64,000 nucleotides of DNA from Streptomyces natalensis ATCC 27448 (GTDB lineage Bacteria; Actinomycetota; Actinomycetes; Streptomycetales; Streptomycetaceae), in the NCBI RefSeq assembly GCF_000935125.1, contig NZ_JRKI01000056.1:1-64000 (forward strand). The letters run 5' to 3'. Numbering within the stretch: the stretch's first letter is position 1; every line of letters begins with the position of its first letter. Positions 1,986 to 40,420 of the stretch are shown here, one piece after another. Made by a program: the position numbers and the translations under genes. The notes beneath the pieces were generated by a model that saw only the letters and a list, made by a program, of their open reading frames with translations, made no database searches and was not told where the DNA came from.

Positions 1986-5988
<4,003 letters not shown>

Positions 5989-5992
<4 letters not shown>

Positions 5993-14967: not shown

Positions 14968-15648
14968 ATGGCGGAGACCAAGGGCGTACTGCTGCCGGCC
15001 TATGTGGTGGCCGACGAGTCGGGGTCGATGGGGCCCTATCAACAGGAGTTGTCACATGGCTTGGCGTCGTTGTGCGAGGGGCTGCGTGCCGAACCGATGA
15101 TCGCGGCGAAACTGCGCCTGGCCGTGCTGGGCTTCTCCGACGATGTGCAGGTCCGGCTGGCCGTCGCGGACATGCGTACGGAGACCACTCTGCCGCAGCT
15201 GACGATCCGGGGACTGACCGCCTACGGGGCGGTGTTCGACGATCTGCTGAGCCGGATTCCGGCGGACGTCCAGTGGCTGCGGGACCAGGGCTACAAGGTG
15301 CACCGGCCGGTGGTGTTCTTCCTCAGCGACGGACAGCCCACGGACCGGGGCTCCTGGCAGCGGCCGCACGCCCGTCTGACCGACAAGTCCCAGACACCGA
15401 CCGCACCGAACATCATCGCCTGCGGAATCGGCGACGCCCAGGCCGCCACCATGGTGAAGGTGGCGACCCGTCCCGAGTTCGCCTTCGTCGCCAAGGCCGA
15501 AACCGACATCGGCCAGGCGATCTCCGAGTTCTTCCACTCGCTCACCGCCAGCCTGGTCGCCTCCGGGCACGCGCTGAACTCGGGCAGTCCGCAGCTCGTG
15601 GTGAACAAGCCCGACCAGTTCACCATGGCGATTGACGAGGTCGGCTAG
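14968..15648 (+). CDS. vWA-domain protein, TerY-like
   Basis: A 226-residue von Willebrand factor A domain protein. The metal-ion-dependent adhesion site is intact: D16-x-S18-x-S20 (ADESGSMG), a conserved threonine in the GLTAYG loop and the FLSDGQPTD aspartate. It is a bare vWA domain without signal peptide or membrane segment, as in TerY. A GGGGAG ribosome-binding site precedes ATG 14968. The stop TAG shares its last base with the GTG start of a PP2C phosphatase gene, and a kinase follows, giving the vWA-phosphatase-kinase order of the TerY-P triad known from comparative genomics of Ter stress systems. Confidence 0.88.
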   Translation: MAETKGVLLPAYVVADESGSMGPYQQELSHGLASLCEGLRAEPMIAAKLRLAVLGFSDDVQVRLAVADMRTETTLPQLTIRGLTAYGAVFDDLLSRIPADVQWLRDQGYKVHRPVVFFLSDGQPTDRGSWQRPHARLTDKSQTPTAPNIIACGIGDAQAATMVKVATRPEFAFVAKAETDIGQAISEFFHSLTASLVASGHALNSGSPQLVVNKPDQFTMAIDEVG

Positions 15649-20150: not shown

Positions 20151-20883
20151 CCGACCGATGCGCTGCCAGCGGGGCTGCATGACGGCACCGCCTTCCACGT
20201 TGATCCATTCCCCGAGCGCCGTGGCGATCTCCTCGCGCCAGCCCACGTGCCAGTCCCCCCTGTCTGCGGCCCTCGTGTCCGGAGCGGCAAATCTACCCAC
20301 GCTCACGAAGTGACATACAGCGAGGTTGCGTGATGGATAGTCAGAAGCGCGCGCACGGACCTTGCTGGAGCCGGGTGCAAGATGCCGACGACTACCGCGC
20401 CCAGCCCCGCGCCATTTCCTCGTCCGTCGCCTCAGTCGTCCGTCGTCACTGTCACGAGCGATGGCCCCTCGAAATCCGGGGTCACGCGCAGGCCATCTCT
20501 CCGAGGCGCTCCCGCAATCACGCTGCCCTTCAAGGATTCACTGTGTGCAGAGATCCGAAATGCTCTGATGCAGAACAAGTCCCAACCCGGTTGACGACCA
20601 AGACATCGCCTTCCGCCGCGATCTGAGGGCCATGCAGCGGCATCTGAACCGGTTGGAATGCCGTCCCCGGAGATCAGGGAACCCCTCCGCAGCGGCCTGT
20701 CCCGGACGTAGGGGCCGGAAGGCCGATCCAGTCTGTGTGATCGCTTCCTACGGCGGGATGGCGATCAGTACGCTTGTAGCAGTGATTCGTCGGTGTCCAC
20801 GTCACCCACGCCGTTCTTGTGCGGCGGCGTGGATGCACGCACCGAGCGAGGTCACGCTGTCGTTACGGGAGTCAGGGGGTGCG
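20151..20883. other. Gene-poor stretch between remnants and the defence locus
   Basis: No gene can be supported here. Base composition is more mixed than in flanking genes and short open frames lack codon bias. Around 20594-20656 a frame reading VDDQDIAFRRDLRAMQRHLNRLE looks protein-like but has no continuation, and may be another gene fragment. The promoter of the kinase gene starting at 20884 should lie in the last ~150 bases; no confident -35/-10 pair was found. Confidence 0.45.
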
Positions 20884-22092
20884 GTGAACGGCAGAACTTT
20901 GCCGCCGCGTATCGGTCCGTACCTCGTCGAGCGGCGGCTCGGCGCGGGCGGTATGGGGGAGGTGTACCTCGCCTACTCCGTCGCGGGTGAACCGGTCGCA
21001 GTGAAGGTGATCCGGCCCGACCGCACGGATCCACACACCCGCGCCCGCTTCGAACGCGAAGCGACGATCGCGCGCACGATCTCCGGCACGGGCCGTGTAG
21101 CCCGTTTCATCGACGCGGACCCGTTTGCCGAGGAGCCGTGGCTGGCCATGGATTACGTCCCGGGCCGCGCTCTCTCCGACCTCGTGAAGGACCAAGGACC
21201 TCTCGCGGCGCCACTCGTGGCGAGCCTGGGCGCATTATTAGCCGAGGGCCTTGCTGCCGTGCACGCTGTGGGCCTGGTCCACCGCGACCTGAAGGCGCAG
21301 AACGTCATCCTGGGCGACTTCGGCCCAGTGATCATCGACTTTGGGCTCGGCGCCTTCCTCGGAGCCTCCAAGGGCTCGCTCTCCCAGGCCGGCACTGTCA
21401 TCGGTACGGTGCGCTGCATGCCACCCGAGCAAGCCTTGGGCGAGGTGGACATGACGCAGGCCGCCGATGTGTACGGCCTGGGCACGGTTCTTCTCTACGC
21501 AGCGACCGAGCACTACCCGTACGACGGCGCCCGGTGGGAGGCGGTGGCCGCGCAGGTGGTCAATCCCGAGGCCGACCCCGATCTGTCCGGGCTGCCCAAG
21601 GAACTTGCCCCCGTCGTGACGTCGATGTTGGCGCACAAAGCGGATGACCGCCCCTCTTTGGAGGAGGTGACCCGGCAGTGCGCCGATCTCATGCGTCTGC
21701 TGGGTACGAGTCCAGCCCGCGCGCGACGCGCGCTGATCCAGGAGACGACGGCGAAGGATCATCCCACGATGGTGCTTCCGCAGCCGGACGCACCGATGCT
21801 TGACCGGCTCGACTCGCTGGAGAGGCTGCTGCGCGAAGAGTTGGTGTCCGGGGAGCGGAACATCCCTGTCCCCACCGCCGCCGGTCAGCCCGGTACGGAC
21901 ACTGCGGGCGAGATCAACATCGAGATCTCGCTATCGCCCGAGCCCTTGACCGCGCGGGGTTCCGAACCCGGGAGCGGAAGACCGGCGGAGCCCGTACCGC
22001 AGCGAGGCCGTCCCCCCGCTTCCCGCAGGGTTGCCGACGAGCTGCGCGAGCGCTACGCGAGACGACCGGCACTCGCCTGGTCGAAGCGCTGA
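20884..22092 (+). CDS. Hanks-type Ser/Thr protein kinase
   Basis: A 402-residue cytoplasmic kinase. The catalytic domain (about 10-275) has the glycine loop GAGGMGEVYLAY, the VAIK-type lysine in VAVKVI, the catalytic loop HRDLKAQN (Asp near 135) and the magnesium loop DFGLG, all intact. The ~125-residue tail is polar with a short coiled-coil-like LDRLDSLERLLREEL and no transmembrane helix. GTG 20884 is chosen for the GGAG/GGGGG purine run just upstream; an ATG at 20833 is in frame. Two consecutive TTA codons (21235-21240) are very unusual and predict strict bldA dependence. It precedes the SNF2 helicase gene by 164 bases in the same direction and probably belongs to that system. Confidence 0.88.
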   Translation: MNGRTLPPRIGPYLVERRLGAGGMGEVYLAYSVAGEPVAVKVIRPDRTDPHTRARFEREATIARTISGTGRVARFIDADPFAEEPWLAMDYVPGRALSDLVKDQGPLAAPLVASLGALLAEGLAAVHAVGLVHRDLKAQNVILGDFGPVIIDFGLGAFLGASKGSLSQAGTVIGTVRCMPPEQALGEVDMTQAADVYGLGTVLLYAATEHYPYDGARWEAVAAQVVNPEADPDLSGLPKELAPVVTSMLAHKADDRPSLEEVTRQCADLMRLLGTSPARARRALIQETTAKDHPTMVLPQPDAPMLDRLDSLERLLREELVSGERNIPVPTAAGQPGTDTAGEINIEISLSPEPLTARGSEPGSGRPAEPVPQRGRPPASRRVADELRERYARRPALAWSKR

Positions 22093-22256
22093 GCCGCTGC
22101 CCTCCTCCGTCCTCCCGCCAACGAGCCGACACAGTACGGAACTCGGGACGTCGGTATGGCCCTGGACACAGCGCACCCGGCTCACCGGACGACCTCGCGG
22201 GCTCCCCCACAAGCACACCGGACAGCACGAGTAGACCGTTCACAGAGGAGCACCAC

Positions 22257-25200
22257 GTGACCACGGCGATGCAGCCAGAGGTCCCTGAGCCGGGCGACGC
22301 CGATCCGGCACATCCGCCGTACCCGACCGGCGCGAAGCCGGTGTTAGCCCCCGGCGCCCAGGTGCGCATCCGCGACGAGCAGTGGCTCGTGAAGTCCGTC
22401 GGGGAGTCCCGCGACGGACTGATGGTCGAGGTCAGCGGGGTTTCCCCGTTCGTCCGTGGCACGGACGCAGTGTTCTACTCCGGCCTCGACCAGATCGACG
22501 TACTCGATCCGCGCAAGACCCGGCTCGTGCCTGACGGCACCTCCAAACACGCCAAGGCCCGCCTCTACCTGGAGGCGGTCATCCGCAAGACCGCGCTGCC
22601 GCAGACCGAGCACGGCATCGCGCTCGCCGACTCCTTCCTCATGGACCGGCAGGAGCATCAGCTGCGCCCCGCCGAGCTGGCGCTGTCCATGCGCAACCCG
22701 CAGCCTCGCCTGCTTATAGCCGACGTCGTCGGTCTGGGTAAGACGCTGGAGATCGGCGTCACGCTCTCGGAACTGATCCGGCGCGGGCGCGGCGAGCGCA
22801 TTCTCGTGGTCACGCCCGCCCATGTGTTGGAGCAGTTCCAGCGCGAGCTGTGGACCCGCTTCGCCCTGCCGCTGGTGCGCCTGGACTCCACCGGTATCCA
22901 GCGCATCCAGCAGGAGATCCCGGCGGGCCGGAACCCGTTCGCCCACTTCAAGCGGGTCATCGTCTCCGTCGACACCCTCAAGTCGGCGACGTACGCCCAC
23001 CACCTGGAGAAGATCACCTGGGACGCGGTGGTCATCGACGAGTCGCACAACCTCGTGAACAAGGGCACCCGCAACAACCGCCTCGCCCGCCGCCTCGCCG
23101 AGCAGACCGACGCACTGATCCTGGCCTCCGCCACTCCGCACAACGGCGACGCGGAGTCCTTCGCCGAGCTGATCGGGATGCTCGATCCGGCGGCGATCGC
23201 CGACCCCAAGAACTACAAGGTGGCCGCCCTCGACCACCTCTACGTCCGGCGCACCAAGTCCGACCGCGAGGTGCGCGACGGCCTCAAGGACAAGCCCTGG
23301 GCCGAACGGGGCGAGTCCCTGCCGGTGCCGGCTCCGGCGACGCGCAAGGAGGTCGCCGTCCTGGAGAAGCTCGCGAGCGAGTGGACCCCCGGGGAGCCGA
23401 ACCGTTCGTCGGTGTGTGCCGATCCGCTGGTCGGCTACAACTTCCTGAAGGCGTTCCTCTCCTCCCACGTCGCCCTGCGCAAATCCCTCACCGCCCGCCG
23501 CGTCTACCTGGACAACCCCAGGAGCGCCATGGTGAAAGGCAAGGACGGCAAGAAGGCGGACTCTCCCGAGCGCCGCGCCGCGCTGGCGGCTGAAGGTGCC
23601 GCACTCGCGGAACTGGAGGCACTGGTCGCGGATTTCACCGATCAGGACTCCGCCAAGCTCGACGCGCTCGTCCGCACATTGAAGGACGACCTCCAGGTCG
23701 GCCCGGGCTGCGAGCGCCGCGTCGTGATCTTCTCCGAGCGGGTCCACACCTTGGACTGGCTGGCCCAGCAGGTCCCGGGCCTGCTCGGCTTCAAGAAGAA
23801 CCCGGCGGCCAAGGCCGACAAGACGCGCCCCTGGCAGGCGTACGGCGGTGTCGTCGAGGTCATGCACGGCGACACCACCAACGACCAGCAGCAGCGGGAG
23901 ATCATCGACCGCTTCGGTCGGGCCGACGAGCCCGTGCGGCTGCTCTTCACCGGCGACATCGCCTCCGAGGGCGTCAACCTGCACCACCAGTGCCACGATC
24001 TCGTTCACTACGACCTCCCCTGGTCCCTCATCCGCATCGAGCAGCGCAATGGGCGCATCGACCGCTACGGGCAGGCGGTGAGCCCCGAGTTCCGTGCGCT
24101 CACCCTCACCGCCGAGGTGCCCTGGCGGCGCGACGAGGAGAGCGGCAGGACGCTCACGCTCGACGACCGGCTGGTCGGCGCCCGCCTGCTGCGCCGCGAG
24201 GCCCAGGCGCACGAGATCGAGACCGGTGAGGGCAGCGCCGAGGCCGTCACCGGCCTCTACGACGACAAGAAGGAAGAGGACCGCCTCACCCGCGACCTCA
24301 TCAAGGGCGGCACCGTCGAACGCTCCATCAAGCAGTCCCAGCAGGAGTCCGGCGGAGTCCTCGCCGACCTCCTCGCCGGCGCGAATGCCCGGCTCGCCGA
24401 CCCGACGGCCGCTCCGGCCACCCTCGGCACGGCCCCGGTGCCCGAGGCGGACGTGCCCCACGTATTCGCCGACACCAAGGCGTACTTCCACGCCGCAATG
24501 GACCTCATCTACCCGCAGGCCGAGCGCGAGGCTCTCGACTGGAAGCCCGAAACGGCCCACGGGCGCATCGAGTTCACTCCGCCCGACGACCTGCAGTACC
24601 GCTTCCGGGAGCTGCCGAAGTCGTACCTGGAGCAGGAGAAGATCCTTACCACCCCCAAGTACGACGGCACACTGCGCATCACCTTCGACAAGCGCTACGC
24701 CGCCGACCGCCTGGACGCCGCCCGCAACGCCAAGCAGGGCAAGGGCGACCAGCCCACTTCCCAGTGGCCCAATGTCTCCTACGTCTCCGACATCCACCCC
24801 GTACTCGACTGGGTGACGGACAAGGTCCTCGCCAAGCTCCGGTACGACGAGGCGTTCGTCCTCGCCCACCAGCCCGACGCCGACAAGGCCAATCGGATCG
24901 ATGCCGCCCTGCCCGAGGCCCTGACCAGCCCCGTCTACCTCCTCCAAGGCATCTACTCCAACGCGGCGGGGAAGCCGACGGTCGTGGAGTGGATGGCCGT
25001 CACCGGACTCGCCGAGGCCGCTCCTCGCGTATGGCGCATGGACTCGGCGTTCCTCGCCGCCTGCGGTGTAGGCCCCGGCATGCCCGGCCGCGGCCGGCCC
25101 GTCGACCCCGGCCTCCTCCAGGCACTCGTCCCCGCGGCCGTCGACGCGGCCGAGACCCACCTGCGCGAGCGCCGTGCCGACTACGACAAGCAAGTCGACT

Positions 25201-25433
25201 CCTACCTGGCCCCGTACGAGGACCGGGTACAGGTCTGGGAGCAGGGCGCCCTGATCGCCGTGGGCAATCAGCAGCAACGCCGCAAGCAGGTGTACGACAC
25301 CGCCGCCCGCCGCCGCGACCTCGTACGCCGCCTGCGGACCGACGGCGACCCGATGCTGCGGGTCCTCTGCGTCCTCGAACCCCTGCACACCACCACCGTG
25401 TCCGCCGCGCACGCCGAGGAGTCCGCACGATGA
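22257..25433 (+). CDS. SNF2-family helicase, DrmD-like
   Basis: A 1058-residue SWI2/SNF2 (RapA-like) ATPase. Walker A is DVVGLGKT near 156-163, motif II is DESH near 260, motif III SATPHNGD, and the C-terminal helicase half has FTGDIASEGVNL and IEQRNGRIDRYGQ (motif VI). The N-terminal segment (GAQVRIRDEQWLVKSV..., ARLYLEAVI) and the LVRLDSTGIQRIQQEIP region resemble DrmD, the SNF2 helicase of class 1 DISARM phage defence, as I remember it. GTG 22257 follows a GAGGAG ribosome-binding site. Codon 30 (22344-22346) is TTA. Its stop overlaps the methyltransferase start by four bases. Confidence 0.85.
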   Translation: MTTAMQPEVPEPGDADPAHPPYPTGAKPVLAPGAQVRIRDEQWLVKSVGESRDGLMVEVSGVSPFVRGTDAVFYSGLDQIDVLDPRKTRLVPDGTSKHAKARLYLEAVIRKTALPQTEHGIALADSFLMDRQEHQLRPAELALSMRNPQPRLLIADVVGLGKTLEIGVTLSELIRRGRGERILVVTPAHVLEQFQRELWTRFALPLVRLDSTGIQRIQQEIPAGRNPFAHFKRVIVSVDTLKSATYAHHLEKITWDAVVIDESHNLVNKGTRNNRLARRLAEQTDALILASATPHNGDAESFAELIGMLDPAAIADPKNYKVAALDHLYVRRTKSDREVRDGLKDKPWAERGESLPVPAPATRKEVAVLEKLASEWTPGEPNRSSVCADPLVGYNFLKAFLSSHVALRKSLTARRVYLDNPRSAMVKGKDGKKADSPERRAALAAEGAALAELEALVADFTDQDSAKLDALVRTLKDDLQVGPGCERRVVIFSERVHTLDWLAQQVPGLLGFKKNPAAKADKTRPWQAYGGVVEVMHGDTTNDQQQREIIDRFGRADEPVRLLFTGDIASEGVNLHHQCHDLVHYDLPWSLIRIEQRNGRIDRYGQAVSPEFRALTLTAEVPWRRDEESGRTLTLDDRLVGARLLRREAQAHEIETGEGSAEAVTGLYDDKKEEDRLTRDLIKGGTVERSIKQSQQESGGVLADLLAGANARLADPTAAPATLGTAPVPEADVPHVFADTKAYFHAAMDLIYPQAEREALDWKPETAHGRIEFTPPDDLQYRFRELPKSYLEQEKILTTPKYDGTLRITFDKRYAADRLDAARNAKQGKGDQPTSQWPNVSYVSDIHPVLDWVTDKVLAKLRYDEAFVLAHQPDADKANRIDAALPEALTSPVYLLQGIYSNAAGKPTVVEWMAVTGLAEAAPRVWRMDSAFLAACGVGPGMPGRGRPVDPGLLQALVPAAVDAAETHLRERRADYDKQVDSYLAPYEDRVQVWEQGALIAVGNQQQRRKQVYDTAARRRDLVRRLRTDGDPMLRVLCVLEPLHTTTVSAAHAEESAR

Positions 25434-28400
25434 GCTACACCTACGACTCCTTCGCCAACCGCGGCGAGTACCTCTCCGCCCACTACTTCAGCGAGGAGCT
25501 GGAGAACACCCTCAAGAAGAGCAAGGCAGGCGACGAGGGTCTGTTCACCCTGTGGACCGGCCGTGAGACCGACCCGCACGACCCGCAGCCCACCCCGCGC
25601 GAACTACTCCCCCGGCTCCGCGGTGAGTACCTGTCCACCGTGCGCCCCTTCCTGGCCTCCCGCACCCAGCAGGAAGAACTCGGCAGCACCTACGACGACC
25701 CGACGGGTGAGTGGGCCGAGCACCTCACCACCTGGCACGCCACCGTCCTCAAGGCCCTCGGCTACGGCGGTGACCGGCCCGAGCCGCTCACCGTGCACAA
25801 CGCGGGCAGGGAGTACGAACTCCAGGTCGCCTGGCACGGTGACGGCATCGTCGCTCTCGACTGCGGCTGGACCGCCCGCCTCGACGACGCCCTCGTCCCC
25901 GACGGGGCCGGACGGCTCCTGCACCCCCTCAAGACCGCCGACGGCCTCCTCGAAGTCGGCGAGAAGCTGGCCGACTGGCTCTTCCAGAGCGAACTGCACG
26001 AGCCCGGCGGCGACGCACCCCGCTTCGTCCTGCTGCTCTGCGGCGGAGTGCTCGTCCTCGCCGACCGAGGCGCCTGGGCCGAAGGCCGCTATCTCGCCGC
26101 CAGTCTGGACGCGGCCCTCACCCGCAACGACACCGCGAAGGCCGGCGAACTCGCCCTCCTCGCTGCCCTTTTCTCCCACGACATGCTCGCGCCCCGGCTC
26201 GACGGCAAGGGCCGCCGCATCGACGACCTCCTGAAGGCTTCCCGTGACAACGCCGTCGGCGTCAACTCCGATTTGCGCAAGGGGCTCCAGCGCTCCGTCG
26301 AGATCATCGCGAACGAGGTGCTCGCCCGGTTACGCAAGGCGGGGGTCGAGCCACGGGAGATCGAGGACCTGAAAAAGGGCCCGTTCGCCAAGCAGCTCAC
26401 CCGCGAGTCGCTGCGCTACCTCTACCGGATCCTCTTCCTCCTCTACGCCGAGGCCCGCCCCGAGCTGGGCATCCTGCCCGCCGACGACTCCACGTACGAG
26501 GCCGGGTACTCGATCGCCCGGCTCCGCGAACTGGTGGCACGCGAGCGAAAGCTGGTCGATGAGGACAGCCGAGGCGGCTTTCACCTGTACACCTCCCTCG
26601 ACGTCCTCTTCAACAAGATCAACTACGGCCACCGCCCGCACGGCACCGAGGCGGACGACGACAAGCCCGCCGAGGAACGCAGCGAATTGCGCGGCCTGCG
26701 CTTCGAGCCGCTGCGCAGCGAGTTGTTCGACCCGAAGGCGATCACCCTCATCGGCCGCCGTGTCCTCGACCCCCGGTGGGACGAGGACGGGGACGAGCCG
26801 CCTCGGTGGCTGGACCTGCGACTGCGCAACGAGGCGTTGCACCAGGTGCTGCGTCTGCTGACCATGAAGGAGGCCGGTCAGAAGGGCAGACAGGGCGGCT
26901 TCATCTCCTATCGAAACCTGGGCATCAACCAGCTCGGCGCCGTGTACGAGGGGCTGATGTCCTACACCGGCAGAATCGCCAAGGACGAACTGGCCGAGGT
27001 CGCCAAGCCCGGTGCGAAGAAGGGCGACAAGCAGTACGGCGACCCCGAGAAGGGGTCCTGGCTCATCCCCGCTGAGCGGCTGAAGAACTACCAGGACAAC
27101 ACGCACGTCGTGTACTCCGCTCAGGACGCCGAACAGTACGGTCTGCGCGGCCCCAAAAAGTACGGCAAGGGCAGGTTCGTCTACCGCCTGGCCGGCCGCG
27201 ACCGCGAGACCTCCGCCTCGTACTACACCCCTGAGTCCCTCACCAAGGTCACCGTCGAACTGGCGCTCAAGCACCGCCTCGACCAGGAGAAGGACGCGGA
27301 CGGCAACACGGTTCGGACTCGCGCGAGCGAGCTCCTGCGCTACACGATCTGCGAACCGGCCCTGGGCTCCGGCGCGTTCCTCAACGAGGCGATCAACCAG
27401 GTCGCAAAGGAGTACCTGAAGCGCCGCCAGGTTGAACTGGGCATCCACCTGGACACGTCGAAGATGCTCCAAGCGGAACAGAAGGTGAAGGCGTACATCG
27501 CCCTCCACAACGCGTACGGGATCGACCTGAACCCGATGGGTGTGGAGCTGGCGGAGGTGTCGCTGTGGCTCAACACCATGTACCCCGGGATGCGCGCGCC
27601 GTGGTTCGGCCTGCATCTGCGGCGCGGCAACTCCCTCATCGGGGCCAGACGGTGGGTGTACGAGGCCGAGCGGATCATGAAGGAGCGGACCCTCGGCGCG
27701 CAGACGCCGACCAAGCTGCCGTTCCGGGCGCCGGAGGGCGATACGGAGCAGTCGCTGCCGGACGGGGCCGTGCACCAGTTCCTGCTGCCCACGCCCGGTT
27801 GGGGTGCGGTCGCGGGGGCGAGCGGGGATGCGAAGAAGTTGGTCGAGCAGCTCGCCGAGGCGCAGGTCGAGCAGCTGAGGGCGTGGAAGAAGGGTGTGCA
27901 GACCAAGCCCAAGACGACGGGCGGCAAGAGCAGCCAGCTCGCCCGGTTGCAGGCTGCGGCTTGCCGGGTGGAGTTCTTGTGGAAGCTCGTCGCCAAGCGC
28001 ATGGAGCTGAGCGAGCGCGAGATCGCCCGCACCATCCATGTGTGGGGCGCCGATCGTGAGGAGGACGCGGAGGAGTTCGCCTTCCTCCGCCATGACAAGC
28101 AGAACGCGGACCAGAGCCTGCCACTGAGCAAGGAGCAGGTCTTCACAGACCTCTTCGCGGCCGAGGGCTCCCCTTACTGGCGGCTCAAGCAGGTCATGGA
28201 CGCGTGGTGTGCGCTGTGGTTCTGGCCGCTGGAGAAGGTGGGACTGCTGGACGGGTCGGACGCGGAGTACGACACGGATCCGGTGGTGACGGCACAGGTG
28301 GGTGTTGACCTGGATGCGTTGCTGTCGTCGGTGGCCGGGCAGCCTGTTGAGGTCGAGCAGCCGCCTGTGCCCGAGCCCACGCCCGCGCCTCAATTCGTGG

Positions 28401-30919: not shown

Positions 30920-33900
30920 GGCCGACCCTCGAAGCGCAGGGACTCAAGGAGAGCCTGCTCCAGTACCTGTCCACGACGTACGGTCTGGCAGACGAGGGGG
31001 CCCGAAAGGCCCTGCACGCCTTCCTCGGGAACGAGACGACGGGCATGTTCCGCGGACCGTACCTGCGCCTGCGCACCCCCTTCACCCCGGCCGACGACCG
31101 CTGGCAACAACACCTGGACTGGGTACGAACGGACGGCTGGACGCCGTACGCGCACCAAGCCCGCGCCTTCGCCCGGCTGACCTCCAAGGGCGGGCACTCA
31201 CCCGAGCCCACCCTCGTCACCACAGGCACCGGCTCCGGCAAGACCGAGTCGTTCCTCTACCCCGTACTCGATCACTGCGCCCGCGAGCGCGCGGCCGGGA
31301 ACAACGGGGTCAAGGCGGTCTTCCTCTACCCGATGAACGCCCTGGCCACCGACCAGGCGGCCCGGATCAACCAACTGCTCACCGATTACGACAAGCTGAG
31401 CGGCGTACGCGCAGGCCTGTACATCGGGGAGAAGGCGGCGACGCACTACGACCGGGTCTACACCCGCCGCCAGGACATGCAGCTGTCCCCGCCGGACATC
31501 CTGATCACCAACTACAAGATGCTCGACCTGCTTCTGCAGCGGGCTGCCGACGCGCCGATGTGGGACGGCAGCGACATCCGATACGTCGTCGTCGACGAGT
31601 TCCACACCTACGACGGCGCGCAGGGCACCGACGTGGCCATGCTGCTGCGCCGCCTCGCCATCGCCGTCGACGCCAACCGGCCCGGCAAGCCGCTTGGCAC
31701 GATCACCCCCGTCGCCACCTCCGCGACCCTCGCCTCCGGTACCGATGAGGACGGGGTTCGCCAACTCCTTTCCGTGGCCACCAACGTCTTCGGCGCCGAG
31801 TTCACCGAGGACGCGATCGTCGGCGAAGACCGCCTGACGGTCGACGAGTTCATCCTCGGCAATGACGAGTCGATCCCGGACGCGAGGTTCCTCCCCGGCC
31901 AGGCCACTCCCCCCGAGACACTGACCGCCTTACCCGACCCGGCCGCCGGTCCCTCGGCGCTCGCGGACCTCGCCGAGGCCGTCACCGGAAGCCGCACCAC
32001 CGATCCGGTCGCCCTCGGTGCCGCGCTCAAGCGCAACCGGCTCACGTACGCGGTCCTGAACGCCTTCGACGGCACGGTGCGCACATACGACGAAGTGCTC
32101 GACGTGATGCGTCGCAGCGGGGCGAGGAGCTGGGACGAGGCGATCACGACGCGGCCGCAGATCGCCGCGGTGGCGCTCGCCCGCTTCGTCGCCCTGCTGG
32201 CCGTAGCACGTGCCCCCGAGGCGCCGGCCGGGATCAGTCGCCCGCTCGTCCAGATCGAGGTGCACCAGTGGGCGCGGTCCGTGACGCGCATGCTGCGTGG
32301 CGTACTGCCTTGGCCGAAGGCGGAGTTCGCGTGGGACACGACCGGGGCGCAGTGCCAGTCGCGCGCAACACCGAACACCACCACCTCACGCGACACCAAG
32401 ATCTTCCTTCCCGCGGTGTACTGCCGTGAGTGCGGGCGCTCCGGCTGGTCGGTCCTCGCCCCCGAGTCGGACCTGGAGGAGTTGAGCTTCGAGCCCCACA
32501 AGATCCGTCGGGCCACCGTGACCGCCGACAAGGCCAAGGTGCGCACCCTGGTGGCGGCCACCGACAACGAGGCCCGCGAGGGCAATGGCCGCACCACCAT
32601 GGACCGCGCCACGCAGAAGTCGCTGACCACCGGCGGCGCGGGCGTGCTCATGATGCTCGACGGTCTCTCCCGTCGCCTGCGCCTGCCAGACCCTCAGAGC
32701 GACTACGACAACGAGGGCGACCCTCAGCCGGCGGGGCCGGATTCGGTCTTCGTCCTCGTCCAGCTCGGCGACACCGCGGAGCGGGCCGCCAAGGACGACT
32801 GGTGCCCGGCCTGCGGTACGCACAACGCGATCCGCTTCGTCGGTACGGGCGCCGCCGCGCTCGCCGCCGCCTCCATCACCCAGCTCTTCACCGGCGGGGA
32901 GATGGACAAGGAGCAGCGTGAGACGAAGACGCTGATGTTCAACGACTCGGTGCAGGATGCCGCCCACCGGGCCGGGTTCGTCGCCTCCCGCTCGTACACC
33001 TTCTCCCTGCGGGCGCTGTTCACCAAGCACCTGAGCGAGCAGCGGCCCAGTGCGCTCAACGACCTCGTCGCCGACGTCGTCGCGGCCACCACCGACCGTG
33101 AGACGCTGGCCGCCGTCGTCCCGCCGGACCTGCACGACGACACGGGCGTGGCGCGTCTGCTGTCGGGCACGGGGCGGGGCGGGGACAGGAAGACGTGGGA
33201 CCTGATCGGTGAACGGTTCGCGTTCGAGGCGGTCATGGAGTTCGGCCACCGCTCACGCAACGGCCGTACCCTCGAACTGACCCGTACCGCGGCCGCCTGG
33301 GTGGACATCCCCGACATACGGGTGGCCGTGGCAATCGCACGTGCCGCCCACGAGGAGTCCGCCGATCGCGGGCTGGCGCTCACCGCACACGACGACGGAC
33401 GCTATCTGGCGTTCTTGCGCGGGCTGTTGGAGCGGCTGCGTACGCGGGGCGCGGTCGGGCACCGGTGGCAGGAGAAATTCCTCGACGAGGCGGGCACCAG
33501 CCGTTACTTCATCTGGGGTGGCCGCCCGCGCGGCATGAAGGCTTTCCCGAAGGGCGTCTCCGCACCGACGTTCCTGCTCGCGCGTCCCAAGCAGGGCAGC
33601 GAGTTCGACTTCGCCGCCGGGCGTCTGTCCTGGTACCAGACCTGGGCGCAACGCTGCCTCGACATGACCCGCGAGCAGGCCGACGAGTTCTGGGTGCGGC
33701 TGCTGCCCCGGCTCACGGACGCCGGTCTGCTCTCGGCCCGCACCCCGGGCGACACGGCCGCCCGGCTCTACGGTCTCCAACCGGGCGCCGTTCAGCTTCA
33801 GTTGCTGACTGACGGCCACGTCAATGAGTCCTATGTGCGCTGCCCGAAGTGCTTCTGGGAGCAGACCGTCCACCCCTCACTACTGGCTCAGTATCACGGG

Positions 33901-36900
33901 CAGCCCTGCCAGGCGTACCGCTGCACGACCGGACGGCTGATCGCGGGTGACCGATGGCTGGAGACCGTGGACCGGCACGACCGGGACCGCGACTACCGCG
34001 ACGACTACTACCGCAGCCTGTACCGGCGAGCCGGCACCTACCAGATCATCACCGCCGAGCACACCGGTCTGCTCTCGCGCGGCAAGCGCGAACGCGTCGA
34101 GGACGCCTTCCGCAGCGGCAAGGGGTTCAACGACCCCAATGTGCTGTCCTGCACGCCCACGCTGGAGATGGGCATCGACATCGGCGAGCTGTCCGCCGTC
34201 GTCCTCGGTGCCCTGCCACGCCGGCCCGCCAACTATGCGCAGCAGGCGGGGCGGGCCGGGCGCCGTACCGGCAACGCCTTCCTGCTGACCATCCCCGACC
34301 GCTCCCGCCGTGACCTGTACTTCCTCGACCGGCCACGGGACATGATCGACGGGCGGATCGTGCCGCCGGGCTCGTATCTGTCAGCCATCGAGATTCTGCG
34401 GCGCCAGTACACCGCGCACCTCCTCGACCTCGCGGCGCGCGGCCGGCTGCTGCGCGAGGACGGCAAGCCGCTGGCTGCCGTGTCGCGCAGGGTCGACGAG
34501 CTCTTCGGCCCCTCCGGCTACCTCGCCGACCTCACCGACGCCGCCCTCGCCCACGGCGAGGAACTCGTCGCGGGCTTCCTCGCACTCTTCCCCACCGGCG
34601 TGAGCGACGCCGCCCGGGATGAGCTGACGAAGTACGCGGTCCGCGGCATCCGCAGCGCCATCGAGAAGGCCGAGCGAGAGTGGGAGCGGGAGAACCAGAA
34701 GCTGCGCACCCGTATCCGTACGATCCGCTCCGCGATCGACGAACTCAAGGAAGGCGACGACGAACAGGCCCGTACGAAGGCAGAGTTGGAGGCCGAACTG
34801 CGCGCCGTCTCGAAGCAGGGCGCCACGCGCCGGCGCCAGCCCGCCCAGACCGTGCTGTGCGACCTCGGCCTGCTGCCCAACTACGCCCTCATCGACGCCG
34901 CGACCACCCTCGACGCCACCGTCTTCTGGCCGGAGGGCACCACGCCCGAGGGGCGGGTCCGTTACACCTCGAAGTCGTTCTCCTACGGGCGGCCACGCGG
35001 CTTCGCCTTGTCCGAGCTCGCCCCCGGCAACACCTTCTACGCCGAGGGCTACAAGCACCGGATCACCGGCATCGACATCGTCACCGGCCGGGACCAGGAC
35101 TGGCGCCAATGGCGCTTCTGCCCCTCGTGCGGTTACGTCCGCACCGAGAACGCCGAGACGGACGTCACGCCCTGCCCTCGGTGCGGGGATGCGGGGATCG
35201 CCGACTCCGGCAGTCTGTGGCAGATCGTCCAGCCCAGTGTCGTCACGGCCCGTGACAAGCGGGAGGATGCCAGGATCGGCGACGAGAGCGACGACCGCGA
35301 CCGGCGCTTCTACACGGTCATCGACATGGTCGACATCGACCCCAAGGACTTCGCGGTGGGCAAGTCCTGGCGGCACACCAAGGAGATCTTCGGCGTCGAC
35401 TACACCCGCCGCGCCGTCATCCGCCGCGTCAACGCCGGGCCACTGAGCATCGGTGCCCAGGACAACGATCAGCTCGCAGGGAAGCCTGTGCGCATCGCCC
35501 CTTTCCACGTGTGCACCGCGTGCGGAGCCGCGAGCGCCGACGGCCGGCCCGTCTTCGACGACGACCAGGACGCCGTCGACAACTCGGCCAACCGCCAGCG
35601 CGAACTCAAGCACCACACCCCCTGGTGCCCACTACGGCGCGGCAAGAAGGGTGTGGATCAGGAACCGGTCCTGCTCGCCCACGAATTGGAGACCGAAGCA
35701 CTGCGGGTCCTGCTGCCCGCCGCGACCGTCCTCGTCGAGGAGAAGGTCCACTCCTTCCAGGCGGCCCTGCGCCTGGGCGTGGACGGCGCCTTCGGCGGCG
35801 ACCCACAGCACCTCGCCACCACCCTCGCCACCATGCCGGACCGCGACACCGCGGAGAGACGGCATTTCCTGGTCCTGTACGACCGCCTCCCGCACGGCAC
35901 CGGCTACCTCGACCGCCTGACCGACCCCCTGAACTTCCGGCAGGTGCTGGAGGGTGCACGCCGGCTGCTCGTGGAGTGCCCTTGCAACGGGGAGGGCCGA
36001 CATGCCTGCTACCGCTGTCTGTACCTGTACGCCGACGAACAGCACATCGAGCGCGTCTCCCGCCAGGCCGCCCTGGAGATCCTCGACGAACTCCTGGGTA
36101 CCGACACCGACGCCTGGGACACCAAGGCGGTCGGTAACACTGACCAGATCGGTCTTGACGGACAGGTCGAGTCCGACCTGGAGGCACGCTTCCTCAAGGC
36201 CCTGCGCGGGTGGGCCGGACAGCGCGCCGACGCCGTGCTGGAAGAGAGCGGTGACAACAGCGCCTATCTGCGGCTCGACGAGGTCGGCACCGTGCACGGC
36301 TGGCGTCTGACCGCTCAGCGCAACGAGGGTTTCACCCGTACCGACTTCACCTTCGAGCGCATCGACGGCCCCAAGCGGAAGATCACCGTCTACCTCGACG
36401 GACACCGCTTCCACGCCACCCGGCGTCACAACCGGCTCGCCGGTGACTCCGACAAGCGCAACCGGCTCCGGGCCGAGGGCCGCGTCGTCTTCCAGCTCAC
36501 CTGGGACGACCTCGACGCCTTCGAGCGGCAGACGAACACGGCGGAGTCCTCCGCGGGGCGGGAGGCAGCCGAAGCGGTGTGGCCGCCGTATCCGCGCAGC
36601 GCCCAGGACGTCGCCAAGCGGCTCTACGCCGAACGCGGTAGCGACGACCTCACCGACACCGCCTTCACCGACCCCATGACCATGCTCCTCGCCTACCTGC
36701 GCAGTCCGGACGACGCGGCCTGGGGACGACGGGCATCGGCGGTGGTCGGCGGGCTCCTCGGAACCGGCAAGGAGATCCTCGTCGGCAACGGCGCCCCCGA
36801 GCAGACCCGCCAGACGCTCGACCGTCTCCTCGACGCCTGGGGCCGCACCGACGGCATGGACACGGCGCCCGTCCAGGGCACTGGCACGCTCAACCTGTTC

Positions 36901-37629
36901 CAGACGTGCGACGAGTCCCATCTGCCCGTCGCCTTCCTCGTCGACGGGGCCACCGGCCGCTGGTCCGCCCTGGCCTGCCTCGACGACACCGCACCCGACC
37001 AGCTCGGCACACCCGAACACAAGGCGCGCTGGCGCTCCTGGCTCCAGTGGTCCAACATTCTTCAGTTCCTCGCCGGCGACGACGGCGACGGTGTCCAACT
37101 GACGACCACCACCGCGGGCCGCTTCGACACCGCGATCCTCAAGGCCTTCGGCGGCCTCGGCGAACTCGAATCCCTCGTCGTGCGGTACGGCACCGGCGTA
37201 CCCGCGACGCAATCCGAGCCCGCGGAGGCATCTCACGACACTCCTCTCGAAGCGGCGGTCCGGGATCTGCTGTGGGACCGGGAGATCCTCGAATACCTCG
37301 ACGAGGACGAACCCGACGCCCCCCTCACCCGCCTCGCCCACATCCTGGCCGACGGCGGCAAGAAGGCCCCCGCCTACGGATACGAGCTCGGCGAACGCGG
37401 CTGGCTCGCCGACTTCGCCTGGGACCACGGCGAACAGCGGATCGCCGTCATGGCCGAACCGTACGACCAGGCGAACGAGGAGAGCGACAAGACCTGGAGT
37501 GCCTACCGCGACGCCGGGTTCACCATCCGCTCGGCCGACGACTGGCTCACCGGCCTCGACGCTCTGCTGACCACGCTCCCCGACGCGACCGCCCGCCCCG
37601 ACTCCGAAGAACAGAGTGCCGCACGATGA
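30916..37629 (+). CDS. Giant DEAD-box helicase with DUF1998 and Vsr/DUF559-like C-terminus
   Basis: A 2237-residue protein. Helicase half one has Walker A TGTGSGKTESF (about 103) and DEFH near 224; half two has CTPTLEMGIDIG and QQAGRAGRR near 1078-1117. Several Cys pairs (CRECG, CPACG, CPSCG, CPRCG, CTACG) are scattered between, and the DUF1998/MZB zinc motif CPCNGEGRHACYRC is near 1688. Beyond it, residues 1806-1870 (TDFTF, VYLDGHRFH, KRNRLRAEG, QLTWDDL) follow the Vsr/DUF559 endonuclease pattern, and a similar block sits near 2159-2215. The protein could be a DrmA-DrmB-like fusion or a Druantia DruE-type helicase. TTA is codon 339. It overlaps both neighbours by four bases. Confidence 0.85.
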   Translation: MRPTLEAQGLKESLLQYLSTTYGLADEGARKALHAFLGNETTGMFRGPYLRLRTPFTPADDRWQQHLDWVRTDGWTPYAHQARAFARLTSKGGHSPEPTLVTTGTGSGKTESFLYPVLDHCARERAAGNNGVKAVFLYPMNALATDQAARINQLLTDYDKLSGVRAGLYIGEKAATHYDRVYTRRQDMQLSPPDILITNYKMLDLLLQRAADAPMWDGSDIRYVVVDEFHTYDGAQGTDVAMLLRRLAIAVDANRPGKPLGTITPVATSATLASGTDEDGVRQLLSVATNVFGAEFTEDAIVGEDRLTVDEFILGNDESIPDARFLPGQATPPETLTALPDPAAGPSALADLAEAVTGSRTTDPVALGAALKRNRLTYAVLNAFDGTVRTYDEVLDVMRRSGARSWDEAITTRPQIAAVALARFVALLAVARAPEAPAGISRPLVQIEVHQWARSVTRMLRGVLPWPKAEFAWDTTGAQCQSRATPNTTTSRDTKIFLPAVYCRECGRSGWSVLAPESDLEELSFEPHKIRRATVTADKAKVRTLVAATDNEAREGNGRTTMDRATQKSLTTGGAGVLMMLDGLSRRLRLPDPQSDYDNEGDPQPAGPDSVFVLVQLGDTAERAAKDDWCPACGTHNAIRFVGTGAAALAAASITQLFTGGEMDKEQRETKTLMFNDSVQDAAHRAGFVASRSYTFSLRALFTKHLSEQRPSALNDLVADVVAATTDRETLAAVVPPDLHDDTGVARLLSGTGRGGDRKTWDLIGERFAFEAVMEFGHRSRNGRTLELTRTAAAWVDIPDIRVAVAIARAAHEESADRGLALTAHDDGRYLAFLRGLLERLRTRGAVGHRWQEKFLDEAGTSRYFIWGGRPRGMKAFPKGVSAPTFLLARPKQGSEFDFAAGRLSWYQTWAQRCLDMTREQADEFWVRLLPRLTDAGLLSARTPGDTAARLYGLQPGAVQLQLLTDGHVNESYVRCPKCFWEQTVHPSLLAQYHGQPCQAYRCTTGRLIAGDRWLETVDRHDRDRDYRDDYYRSLYRRAGTYQIITAEHTGLLSRGKRERVEDAFRSGKGFNDPNVLSCTPTLEMGIDIGELSAVVLGALPRRPANYAQQAGRAGRRTGNAFLLTIPDRSRRDLYFLDRPRDMIDGRIVPPGSYLSAIEILRRQYTAHLLDLAARGRLLREDGKPLAAVSRRVDELFGPSGYLADLTDAALAHGEELVAGFLALFPTGVSDAARDELTKYAVRGIRSAIEKAEREWERENQKLRTRIRTIRSAIDELKEGDDEQARTKAELEAELRAVSKQGATRRRQPAQTVLCDLGLLPNYALIDAATTLDATVFWPEGTTPEGRVRYTSKSFSYGRPRGFALSELAPGNTFYAEGYKHRITGIDIVTGRDQDWRQWRFCPSCGYVRTENAETDVTPCPRCGDAGIADSGSLWQIVQPSVVTARDKREDARIGDESDDRDRRFYTVIDMVDIDPKDFAVGKSWRHTKEIFGVDYTRRAVIRRVNAGPLSIGAQDNDQLAGKPVRIAPFHVCTACGAASADGRPVFDDDQDAVDNSANRQRELKHHTPWCPLRRGKKGVDQEPVLLAHELETEALRVLLPAATVLVEEKVHSFQAALRLGVDGAFGGDPQHLATTLATMPDRDTAERRHFLVLYDRLPHGTGYLDRLTDPLNFRQVLEGARRLLVECPCNGEGRHACYRCLYLYADEQHIERVSRQAALEILDELLGTDTDAWDTKAVGNTDQIGLDGQVESDLEARFLKALRGWAGQRADAVLEESGDNSAYLRLDEVGTVHGWRLTAQRNEGFTRTDFTFERIDGPKRKITVYLDGHRFHATRRHNRLAGDSDKRNRLRAEGRVVFQLTWDDLDAFERQTNTAESSAGREAAEAVWPPYPRSAQDVAKRLYAERGSDDLTDTAFTDPMTMLLAYLRSPDDAAWGRRASAVVGGLLGTGKEILVGNGAPEQTRQTLDRLLDAWGRTDGMDTAPVQGTGTLNLFQTCDESHLPVAFLVDGATGRWSALACLDDTAPDQLGTPEHKARWRSWLQWSNILQFLAGDDGDGVQLTTTTAGRFDTAILKAFGGLGELESLVVRYGTGVPATQSEPAEASHDTPLEAAVRDLLWDREILEYLDEDEPDAPLTRLAHILADGGKKAPAYGYELGERGWLADFAWDHGEQRIAVMAEPYDQANEESDKTWSAYRDAGFTIRSADDWLTGLDALLTTLPDATARPDSEEQSAAR

Positions 37630-39959
37630 CTGCACGCCTGAGCCTCTATCAGAAGGCCGAGAACGAGCTCTACAAGATGGACTCGTCGGTCAAGACGAAG
37701 TTCTACGACTTCTGCCACCAGTTCCGTCTCGACCCGTATCACCCCAGCCTCGACCTCAAGCCTCTCAAGGGCGACGGCCGGATCTTCCGCGCCAAGATCG
37801 ACCGTTCGTACCGGGCGCTCCTCGCCCGGGCGGGTGTCGGTGCCGATGGCATCCAGCAGTGGCTGATCGTCGCCGTCCGCCACCGCAAGGACGTCTACGA
37901 CCAGCTCAGCGTCGCCGTCAACCGGGTGACCGGCGAGATCGAGTTCGTCGACCTCGGCGTCGTCGGACAGAGTGTCCTTCAGCGCGCGGGACTCCAGCTC
38001 ACTCCGGCCACGGACGATCACGACGCACCGGCCCCGGACGAGCAGGCCGTACCGGCCGAGCCCACGCCCGCGCCCGTCGTGACGGAGCAACCGGCCGCCC
38101 TCACCGAACCATTCCTCACCGGCTGCGCCCCCGAGGACCTGCGCCGTCTCGGTGTCGCCGATGCCCTGATCGACGTCGTCCTCACGGTCACGACCGAAGA
38201 GGAACTCGACCAGCTCATCGTCGGCGCCCCGCGGCTGACCGCCGAGGTCCTCACCGGCCTCGGCTCCGGCATGTCCGTCGACGAGGTCGAGCGTGAGATC
38301 ACCCAGCCCGCCTCTGCCGAACTCGAACCGGGCTTCGAGAACGACATGGCGGCGGCCCTCACACGCACCACGGTCACCACAGTCGACGACGACATCCGCA
38401 ACGTCCTGGCCGAGGGCGACTTCCGCGCCTGGAAGGTCTACCTCCACCCCACCCAGCGCAAGACCGTCGAACGGAACTACAGCGGCCCCGCCCGGGTCAG
38501 CGGCGGCCCCGGCACCGGCAAGACCATCGTCGCCCTGCACCGCGTCGCCCGCCTCGCCGCCGCCCTACCGCCCGGTCACGGCAAGCCGATCCTGCTGACG
38601 ACGTACACCAAGAACCTCACCGCCGATCTGCGCTCCCGGCTCACGTCGCTCATGGATCCGGCGCTGCTCGGCCGCATAGACATCAAGCACATCGACCAGC
38701 TCGCCCAGAACGTCCTGAACGAGAACACCGCGCCCGGCGCGCAGCGCGGCCTGATCACCGACGACCGGGCACTGGACGTGTTGCGCGAGGTCCTCTTCGA
38801 GCACGACGAGCAGCGCTGGGAGGCCGAGTTCCTCTTCGACGAATGGGAGCAGATCGTCCTCGGACAGTCCCTCGCCACCCGCCAGGGCTACTTCAAGGCC
38901 CGCCGTGCCGGTATGGGCCGTGCCCTCAACCGCCCCGAACGCGCCGCCGTCTGGAAGCTGCTCGACCAGTTCACCCTGCGCCTGGGGGGCATGGGCCGTG
39001 AGACCTGGGCGCAGGCCGCCGAACGCGCGGCGCGCTACGAGATGGAGCGCGCGCGCAAGATCCATCATCGGGCCGAACACAAGGCCGAGATCGGCGGCGG
39101 CGACCTGGCCCACCTCGACGACAACAGCTCCGCGATGCGCTACCTGCACCACCGCTACCGCCATATCGTCGTCGACGAGGCCCAGGACCTCAGCCCCGCC
39201 CACTGGAAGATGCTGCGCGCCATGGTCGCGTCCGGCCCGGACGACCTTTTCATCGCCAGTGACACCCACCAGCGGATCTACGACCGGCAGGTCACCCTCT
39301 CCACTGTCGGCGTCAACATCCGCGGGAGGTCCTCGAAGCTGACGCTCAGCTATCGCACGACGCAGGAAATCCTCGACCAGGCCGCCAGGGTCGTCCACGG
39401 GGCCACCTATGACGACCTCGACGACGGCACCGACACCCTCGACGGCTACCACTCCCTGCTGCATGGCCCGGCGCCGGAGTACGTCGCCTGTGCCGACTGG
39501 ACCGACGAGATCACTCAGCTCGCCGAGGCCCTCAAGCAGTGGCGCGAGGACATCGCCCAGCCCGCCGAGGACGGCACCGTACGCGACCCGAGCGGGACCA
39601 TGGCCGTCTGCGTCGCGGACGGCGAGATGGCCGGCCGTGTCGCCACCGACCTGGAGATGAAACACGGCATCACCACGGCGACCCTCACCAAGGACGGCCC
39701 GCAGGGGGGCGGAGAGGTCCACATCGGCACGATGCACCGTTTCAAGGGCCTCGAATACCAGAAGCTTGCGGTCGTCGGCGCGAGCGACGGCGTCCTTCCC
39801 CGCACCGGCCTCATCGAAAAGTACGCGACGACCGACCCCAAGCGCTACGAACGTGAACTCAAGAAGAGCCGCAATCAGCTCTTTGTCGCCGCGACGCGAG
39901 CCCGCGACGCGCTGCGAATTTCCTGGCACGGCAGACCCAGCCCATTCCTGCCCCTGTAG
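37626..39959 (+). CDS. UvrD/Rep-type helicase with N-terminal RelE-like domain
   Basis: A 777-residue superfamily 1A helicase. Residues 1-105 (DSSVKTKFYDFCHQFR, LDLKPLKGDGRIFRAKIDRSYRALL, AVRHRKDVY) have the RelE/ParE toxin-fold pattern. A linker with an HhH-like repeat follows, then Walker A GGPGTGKT near 292, motif II VVDEAQDLSP near 516, GTMHRFKGLEY and the terminal VAATRARDAL. It has intact ATPase motifs and no nuclease domain. It is the last gene of the operon, starting at an ATGA overlap. Unlike its partners I see no TTA codon. RelE-UvrD fusions occur in defence islands; whether the RelE part is catalytic is unknown. Confidence 0.85.
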   Translation: MTARLSLYQKAENELYKMDSSVKTKFYDFCHQFRLDPYHPSLDLKPLKGDGRIFRAKIDRSYRALLARAGVGADGIQQWLIVAVRHRKDVYDQLSVAVNRVTGEIEFVDLGVVGQSVLQRAGLQLTPATDDHDAPAPDEQAVPAEPTPAPVVTEQPAALTEPFLTGCAPEDLRRLGVADALIDVVLTVTTEEELDQLIVGAPRLTAEVLTGLGSGMSVDEVEREITQPASAELEPGFENDMAAALTRTTVTTVDDDIRNVLAEGDFRAWKVYLHPTQRKTVERNYSGPARVSGGPGTGKTIVALHRVARLAAALPPGHGKPILLTTYTKNLTADLRSRLTSLMDPALLGRIDIKHIDQLAQNVLNENTAPGAQRGLITDDRALDVLREVLFEHDEQRWEAEFLFDEWEQIVLGQSLATRQGYFKARRAGMGRALNRPERAAVWKLLDQFTLRLGGMGRETWAQAAERAARYEMERARKIHHRAEHKAEIGGGDLAHLDDNSSAMRYLHHRYRHIVVDEAQDLSPAHWKMLRAMVASGPDDLFIASDTHQRIYDRQVTLSTVGVNIRGRSSKLTLSYRTTQEILDQAARVVHGATYDDLDDGTDTLDGYHSLLHGPAPEYVACADWTDEITQLAEALKQWREDIAQPAEDGTVRDPSGTMAVCVADGEMAGRVATDLEMKHGITTATLTKDGPQGGGEVHIGTMHRFKGLEYQKLAVVGASDGVLPRTGLIEKYATTDPKRYERELKKSRNQLFVAATRARDALRISWHGRPSPFLPL

Positions 39960-40420
39960 GCCGGATCGATTCGCCGGAGAAGGGGGTCGCAGAGCACACC
40001 GGATCTCATGCCACCGGGCACGTGACGTGGTGGAGCGGTGGGAGCAGGGCGAGGGCAGGCCGCTCGATCCCACCTCCGACACCGCCCGTACGGCCGCCGT
40101 GCACCCCCGCCGCGCCTACGACTTTCGACGCCTGCCGCCTGCCGCCTGCCGCCTGCCGCCTGCCGCCTGCCGCCTGCCGCAAGAGGCTCACGGCAATGAG
40201 CGTCACGCAGTATGACCACATGGCGAGGGCCACGCCGCCCGAGCGCCTCGACGTAGGCGAGCGTCAAGAACATGACGAGAGTGCGGCCACGGCTTGCGCC
40301 ACCGTCGTCGAGCCCCGACGAATCCGCAGGTCAGGCGCGTACGGCCGACCAGCCCCGCGTTTCAGCTGTTGTACGGACGGAAACAGGTGGAGCGCACCAG
40401 GCCCACCACAAAACCGCAGG
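39960..40420. other. Intergenic region after the defence operon
   Basis: These ~460 bases separate the helicase operon from the convergent RNA methyltransferase gene. No supported gene is present; short minus-strand frames crossing the heptamer repeat look artefactual. No strong terminator hairpin was found. Confidence 0.45.
40131..40179. repeat. Seven perfect copies of a heptanucleotide (CCTGCCG)
   Basis: The unit CCTGCCG is repeated seven times without error over 49 bases, with one further base continuing the pattern. It lies ~170 bases beyond the end of the helicase operon, outside any supported gene. Perfect short tandem arrays of this kind are prone to slippage. Confidence 0.93.

Follow-up and report, generated by a model that had tools for sequence, protein, structure and literature searches.

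The window analysed here is the whole of a 64,000-nucleotide stretch of DNA from Streptomyces natalensis ATCC 27448 (contig NZ_JRKI01000056.1, positions 1 to 64,000). Between positions 20884 and 39959 its + strand carries five consecutive genes, a Hanks-type Ser/Thr kinase followed by homologues of ArmA, ArmB, ArmC and ArmD, the components of the anti-phage system ARMADA type II. Judged by sequence, the four-gene core (22257-39959) almost certainly belongs to this system and is already known; the new part is the kinase-bearing branch to which the locus belongs. We propose that this is the ARMADA type II of an actinobacterial branch in which the kinase would serve as an integral phosphorylation switch. 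The features of the locus are as follows (aa, amino acids; pLDDT, predicted local distance difference test; SAM, S-adenosylmethionine):

20884..22092, + strand: Hanks-type Ser/Thr kinase ("ArmK", our own label), 402 aa; Pkinase domain; AlphaFold2 model with pLDDT 84
22006..22074, + strand: conserved C-terminal tail of the kinase, residues 375-397, with a predicted helix at 379-392 and the core AxxLRxxYA
22257..25433, + strand: ArmA, BrxHII/RapA/DrmD-like SNF2 helicase, 1058 aa; Walker A K162, Walker B D261
25430..30919, + strand: ArmB, PglX/DrmMI-like adenine methyltransferase, 1829 aa; SAM motif G646, NPPW N1141
30916..37629, + strand: ArmC, YprA/DruE-like helicase, 2237 aa; K109, D227; MrfA Zn-binding domain
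36166..36714, + strand: possible Vsr/DUF559-like nuclease domain, ArmC residues 1751-1933, from structure comparison of a predicted model
37312..37593, + strand: possible second Vsr-like domain, ArmC residues 2133-2226, probably inactive
37626..39959, + strand: ArmD, RelE-like N-terminal domain fused to a GajB-like UvrD helicase, 777 aa; K299, D517
20733..39968, + strand: probable transferred unit, comprising the five genes and about 150 base pairs (bp) of upstream sequence; DNA homology ends near here

The original prediction, made from the DNA letters alone, had placed these five genes correctly, and open frames and Pfam domains agree that they are real. The kinase matches Pkinase (4.5e-33), ArmA SNF2-rel_dom (7.6e-14) and Helicase_C, ArmB an Eco57I/MmeI-type methyltransferase model, ArmC DEAD (5.4e-20), Helicase_C and the MrfA Zn-binding domain (MZB), and ArmD UvrD (1.1e-23). 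The kinase frame is open from 20632, with a likely GTG start at 20884 that has AGGGGG four bases before it; ArmD starts with ATG at 37626. The four-base overlaps reported between the genes after the kinase exist at all three junctions (25430/25433, 30916/30919 and 37626/37629), the sizes given for ArmB and ArmC are right, and kinase and ArmA are spaced by 164 bp. Because the five-gene order recurs in further genomes, among them plasmids of S. cellulosae and S. jietaisiensis that bear the same five genes, the arrangement is not a product of chance.

ARMADA type II was described in a 2025 preprint as ArmA, ArmB, ArmC and ArmD in strict order (Bell et al., PMC12458937). In the parts of this source covered here, ArmA is a BrxHII-like helicase, ArmB a PglX-like methyltransferase, ArmC a YprA-like helicase-nuclease and ArmD a RelE domain fused to a GajB-like UvrD helicase; ArmC carries BrxA-like and Zn beta-barrel inserts and a C-terminal Vsr-type nuclease, often followed by inactive copies (PMC12458937). 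The system of E. coli strains NCTC 12900 and ATCC 8739 is anti-phage, requires all four Arm proteins, and protects directly and in a non-abortive manner. Eight residues were mutated (ArmA K136 and D236, ArmB G605 and N971, ArmC K110 and D234, ArmD K266 and D454); six mutations abolished protection, and ArmB G605A and ArmD D454N merely reduced it (PMC12458937).

The window genes fit this description in content, one-strand order and RelE-UvrD fusion. With the E. coli relative L208, whose residue numbering agrees with that of the preprint's mutants, as reference, each of the eight mutated positions falls, in the alignment, on the same residue in the window: ArmA K162 and D261, ArmB G646 and N1141, ArmC K109 and D227, ArmD K299 and D517. 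These key columns are invariant, or show one gap, over 84 (ArmA), 88 (ArmB), 55 (ArmC) and 45 (ArmD) rows. An E. coli type II ArmC can be aligned with 83% of the window's ArmC at 29.7% identity. Between its helicase halves, the window's ArmC has a stretch of about 770 residues that includes three CxxC motifs (503, 630 and 976). Since the published ARMADA type II consists of just these four genes in the same order, the core is not a new system. Filing the genes under a single PADLOC system was also tried and rejected, as the best matches scatter over PD-T4-6, DrmD, REase_MTase_IIG, DruE and GajB; the PADLOC copy dates from 2023 and is older than the ARMADA preprint.

The terminal domains of ArmD and ArmC were considered separately. 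A profile built from the N-terminal 120 residues of ArmD in 15 sequences (the window and 14 relatives) matches the RelE/YoeB structures 1wmi, 2khe and 7v5y (E 3.5e-4 to 5.7e-4), and Pfam ParE_like is found in 10 of the 15 N-termini at E 0.1 or better (best 0.0028). The RelE assignment rests on this family profile because the N-terminus of the window's own ArmD matches no Pfam model, ParE_like included. The ArmC C-terminus, modelled alone with pLDDT 77, gave no Foldseek match at E 0.001 or better. By VIA-align, residues 1751-1933 superpose on 3hrl (Z 6.0, root-mean-square deviation (rmsd) 2.6, 94 residues aligned, 22% identity) and residues 2133-2226 on 3r3p (Z 6.9, rmsd 3.1, 83 aligned), scores that are modest and in a range reachable by chance; many unrelated E2-type folds also match this C-terminus at Z 4-5. 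ArmC D1810 and H1833 are invariant in 14 relatives and position 1828 is D or E. A C-terminal Vsr-like nuclease is thus possible on the predicted model, in line with the preprint.

The link between kinase and ARMADA was counted in three sets of loci. The first joined four plasmid loci to the top-ranking 80 of at least 573 relatives in genome contigs; ArmA is present in 80 of these loci, and the four loci without it and L050, where ArmA is cut, were excluded. A same-strand kinase lies upstream in 76 of the 79 loci with an uncut ArmA, with an estimated spacing of -66 to 281 bp; the exceptions are the Tsukamurella locus L009, the E. coli locus L010 and L085 (340 bp upstream covered). Because this set leans to near relatives, two even samples were taken. 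Within the family, ArmB is found at E 1e-100 or better in 45 of 297 genomes, our own included, and the kinase stands upstream of ArmA at all 44 evaluable places out of 48, with none lacking it; L140 and L155 (contig ends) and L169 and L170 (no ArmA) could not be evaluated. The last two are ArmB homologues without ArmA within 8 kilobases (kb), that is, solitary or reshuffled methyltransferases. In the class sample 42 of 394 genomes match at 1e-60, and the 11 of our own family were left out, as were C-terminal fragments in G690 and G825; L194 was too short, G367 (a fragment from our own family) falls outside both samples, and G278 corresponds to L102. Of the 32 places thus obtained outside the family, 31 were evaluable: 16 with kinase and 15 without. 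A kinase profile found an upstream match in all 60 kinase loci of the two even samples and only one match over 21 kinase-free loci, a larger kinase on the opposite strand (L196). The E. coli relatives L010, L208 and L209 have no kinase just upstream.

This distribution follows the ArmA phylogeny. In a FastTree tree of 162 ArmA proteins, a single change splits 137 kinase-bearing from 21 kinase-free rows with support 97, against a mean of 20.0 changes for shuffled labels; four rows carry no label, L103 was left out (436 bp upstream, ArmA call too short), and the root was set on three rows from outside Actinomycetota, all kinase-free. Some species occur in two collections; after thinning of ArmA at 98, 90 and 70% identity, the rows number 125, 80 and 24 with the kinase and 21, 20 and 16 without. 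Read most simply, the sequences indicate that the kinase was gained once by one actinobacterial branch, with no loss seen in the sampled loci. The ARMADA kinases form one group with respect to 20 paralogues from the same genome (support 100). Distances between kinase domains rise with those between ArmA proteins (r 0.83; reached in none of 2000 permutations), the ArmA-ArmB correlation of 0.90 being somewhat higher.

The borders of DNA homology point in the same direction. Compared with 14 relatives, in matches of more than 300 bases, homology starts between 20622 and 20911, and in 13 of them it ends between 39952 and 39968; L013, whose homology is cut at a contig end, was excluded from the end-point count. 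On the upstream side of the kinase the relatives cover 4.4-10 kb; past ArmD, coverage is 17.5 kb in two plasmids, just under 1 kb in 11 relatives and nil in L013. No further match, shorter ones included, lies beyond the five-gene borders in the flanks of the compared relatives. Because these borders enclose all five genes, the kinase most likely moves together with ArmA-D.

The kinase has the catalytic residues K41, HRD (133-135), N140 and DFG (152-154). K41, HRD, N140 and D152/G154 are retained in 76 of 76 ARMADA kinases, and from these sequences the enzyme should therefore be active. Its linker (291-374) is variable, with a mean modal fraction of 0.25 as opposed to 0.54 for the conserved last 23 residues, and the value reaches 0.69 in residues 384-392 and 0.66 in the kinase domain. 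AlphaFold2 predicts a helix at 379-392 in a block of pLDDT about 82, preceded by a stretch below 50. This predicted layout would be typical of a docking peptide. The 50 Foldseek matches listed for the kinase model are general kinases only. A strict tail pattern, A..[LIVM]R..[YF][AG], is found within the last 45 residues of 68 of the 77 first-set kinases, 40 of 44 in the family and 11 of 16 in the class, and at any position in 71 of the 77. Neither this pattern nor a looser one occurs in the last 45 residues of the same-genome paralogues (0/20 for each), the comparison covering 20 of the 34 other kinase places in the genome.

A partner for the tail was sought in the Arm proteins. These are longer in the kinase-bearing branch (medians of 1810 versus 1596 aa for ArmB, 2239 versus 2116 for ArmC and 770 versus 719 for ArmD). 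Branch-specific segments of ArmA-D, searched against seven kinase-free rows for ArmB-D and 21 for ArmA, point to no such partner. The tail pattern itself occurs in 0 of 56 ArmC and 0 of 46 ArmD proteins, and in one of 85 ArmA and two of 89 ArmB proteins, these few occurrences being probably due to chance.

How the system would work can be sketched by homology. ArmB would mark the host DNA, and ArmC, guided by ArmA and ArmB, would load onto unmarked or abnormal phage DNA and cut it through its Vsr-type nuclease, with ArmD processing nucleic acid. The C-terminal helix would dock the kinase on the Arm complex, where, upon a signal of infection or replication stress, the kinase would phosphorylate one or more Arm proteins. 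By analogy with PglW in the Pgl system, phosphorylation might keep a dangerous helicase-nuclease-RNase complex off until it is needed. Within this proposal, it is very probable that the kinase is a functional part of the cassette; that it is a switch acting on the Arm complex itself is a more specific claim, to which we give about an even chance.

Several observations weigh against the proposal. ARMADA as such does not require the kinase, because the four-gene system of E. coli functions without one, and we found no experiment on a kinase-bearing ARMADA. The 164 bp gap between kinase and ArmA permits separate expression, no binding partner or phosphosite was found for the kinase, and its targets could be host proteins instead. 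The branch-specific segments are all short, the longest being 28 residues (ArmD 481-508). The looser tail pattern, present in the last 45 residues of 77/77 first-set, 41/44 family and 16/16 class kinases and at any position in 3/20 paralogues, was devised after the exceptions were known. The kinases of three family loci, L172, L173 and L174, have a clearly different tail, and that of L175 is merely 28% identical. Finally, the direction of the change on the ArmA tree and the point at which it occurred are less sure than the number of changes, because only three rows come from outside Actinomycetota and the basal branches are long. The L172-L174 kinases form a divergent group with a common tail of their own (PWxDRWRxKIRDRRSDFGG-like), which may dock differently.

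The alternative that survives best, although we regard it as unlikely, is that the kinase is a backup abortive effector which, when ARMADA fails, phosphorylates essential host proteins and halts growth. Its best PADLOC profiles are indeed PD-T4-6 defence kinases (5e-56) and mad6 (3.7e-49), and further systems nested in the operons of sister loci are in line with layered defence. However, PADLOC scores among kinases mostly reflect the common kinase fold; in NCBIfam, AfsK outscores the defence-kinase models. The tail, which operon-linked kinases conserve and which 20 paralogues lack, argues for a partner inside the cassette, and the E. coli system is non-abortive (PMC12458937).

Still less credible is that the kinase is a host-type regulator standing upstream of ArmA by chance, or a passenger, playing no direct part in ARMADA. 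Kinases of this type are numerous in Streptomyces genomes (35 places in the present genome, the ARMADA kinase included), and the gap to ArmA would suit this reading. Against it stand the linkage in the even samples (44/44 and 16/31) with one change on the tree, homology borders that take in the kinase, and the separation of its group from the 20 paralogues.

The original prediction had interpreted the locus as a new DISARM/Druantia-type hybrid with its own architecture, which now appears very improbable. The best PADLOC profiles do include DrmD, DrmMI and DruE, but the NCBIfam DrmD model, whose cut-off is 610, gives ArmA 282.9 bits, DrmA, DrmB and DrmC are not found as separate genes among the five, and for the core the idea is refuted by the preprint, which has named it ARMADA type II. 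The condition under which the original prediction would fall, a single named system covering the exact gene set, holds for four of the five genes. The preprint as covered here does not include the fifth, the kinase; the word 'kinase' is absent from its main text, to which this check was confined, supplements lying outside it (PMC12458937). Among the literature matches listed for ARMADA or DISARM together with a kinase, supplements again outside the scope, no paper ties a kinase to ARMADA. Equally improbable is a role of the genes in DNA repair or chromosome upkeep rather than defence, since, although the YprA/MrfA and SNF2 families include repair enzymes, presence is patchy (ArmB in 45 of 297 family genomes), plasmids carry the locus, homology borders are sharp, and a tested anti-phage system is homologous to it with all eight mutated residues retained.

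In a row at 14968-18565, upstream of the ARMADA kinase, the window encodes a VWA protein, a PP2C phosphatase and a 642-aa divergent kinase-like protein, the last with weak PADLOC kinase matches only; we would liken this triad to TerY-P-like arrangements. It ends about 2.3 kb upstream of the ARMADA kinase and was rejected as a part of the system, as the homology to relatives stops at that kinase. VWA and PP2C genes are found near just one other locus, L083, and there on the other strand. Further upstream, an open frame on the - strand (12311-14731) has a C-terminal DNA/RNA non-specific endonuclease domain (1.3e-10).

The branch also varies between ArmB and ArmC. Both genes can be seen in 58 kinase loci; they adjoin in 35 (34 counted by script, and L013, whose apparent 3.3 kb insert is an interrupted ArmB frame) and are separated by 1.1-9.7 kb in the other 23. 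Searches with seed proteins named by PADLOC found NsnA, NsnB and NsnC in ten inserts, HEC-01A and HEC-01B in five and caspase/Mko-like proteins in five; Nsn is presumably the Menshen system. Examples of inserts are L075 (17312-20775), L053, L055, L056 and L077. More tentatively, and with the odds somewhat against it, ARMADA II might be seen as having become, in actinobacteria, a phosphorylation-controlled platform, with a kinase gained once, docking through its tail and acting as an infection switch, and, in several sub-branches, with an ArmB-ArmC slot for whole additional defence systems that are perhaps under the same kinase.

Two further forms of variation were observed. In the kinase-free Tsukamurella locus L009, DrmA (5e-244) and DrmB (4.5e-66) lie at 3504-8413, directly upstream of ArmA (8449), and DrmA/DrmB homologues precede ArmA in four more loci of the same class (L193, L195, L197 and L201); loci of this type are DISARM-ARMADA composites that may share one methyltransferase. 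The plasmid ArmB proteins of L007 (14479-20004) and L008 (14464-20004) are near-identical over their first two thirds or so and then strongly different, which likely reflects exchange of the DNA-recognition half.

ARMADA has been described as a four-gene system, and regulation is absent from the parts of the preprint covered here (PMC12458937). Our results suggest that an actinobacterial branch controls its own defence by phosphorylation. With a kinase that is fixed in a large branch and has intact catalytic residues and a docking-like tail, control of a toxic complex becomes testable by point mutants. The parallel with PglW further suggests that actinobacteria may repeatedly have placed methyltransferase-based defence under Hanks kinases.

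Among known systems, class 1 DISARM shares with this locus a DrmD-like SNF2 helicase, a DrmMI-like methyltransferase and a YprA-type helicase. In contrast to DISARM, helicase and Zn-binding part are fused here, and RelE-UvrD and a kinase are added. The view that the locus is related to class 1 DISARM and yet distinct from it holds, the DrmD score falling far below its cut-off, as do the observations that one giant helicase, the 2237-aa ArmC, replaces drmA and drmB and that drmC is missing: a PADLOC scan of the five genes and five upstream frames (some overlapping) gave no DrmC among the best 25 matches listed. The likeness of the giant helicase to Druantia was also correctly seen, since ArmC matches DruE profiles in PADLOC (1.7e-91, in three stretches), though in pieces. 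The locus differs from Druantia by its methyltransferase and three further enzymes, and no Druantia partner (DruH, DruM or DruA-D) is among the five genes in the best 25 PADLOC matches listed. MADS is likewise a methylation-linked system with a kinase, MAD6, but the MAD6 model scores 111 against a cut-off of 460 and MAD2 21 against 720.

BREX type 2/Pgl offers a parallel in regulation, with an adenine methyltransferase under a Hanks kinase in Streptomyces. A kinase-dead PglW mutant of Streptomyces coelicolor is phage-sensitive, kinase activity being needed for Pgl resistance, and the authors propose that PglW activity leads to PglX activation (PMC4365076, as far as covered here). The kinase of the window is, in contrast, small and stand-alone: the PglW profile scores 35.6 against a cut-off of 990 (NCBIfam), there is no NERD-kinase fusion or PglY among the five genes, and no PglZ is among the matches listed for them (PADLOC and NCBIfam, ArmD lying outside the NCBIfam scan). 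ARMADA type II itself is the nearest relative, with the same four genes in strict order, the RelE-UvrD fusion and the eight mutated residues; the branch described here differs from it by its kinase and, in some members, by other defence systems held between ArmB and ArmC.

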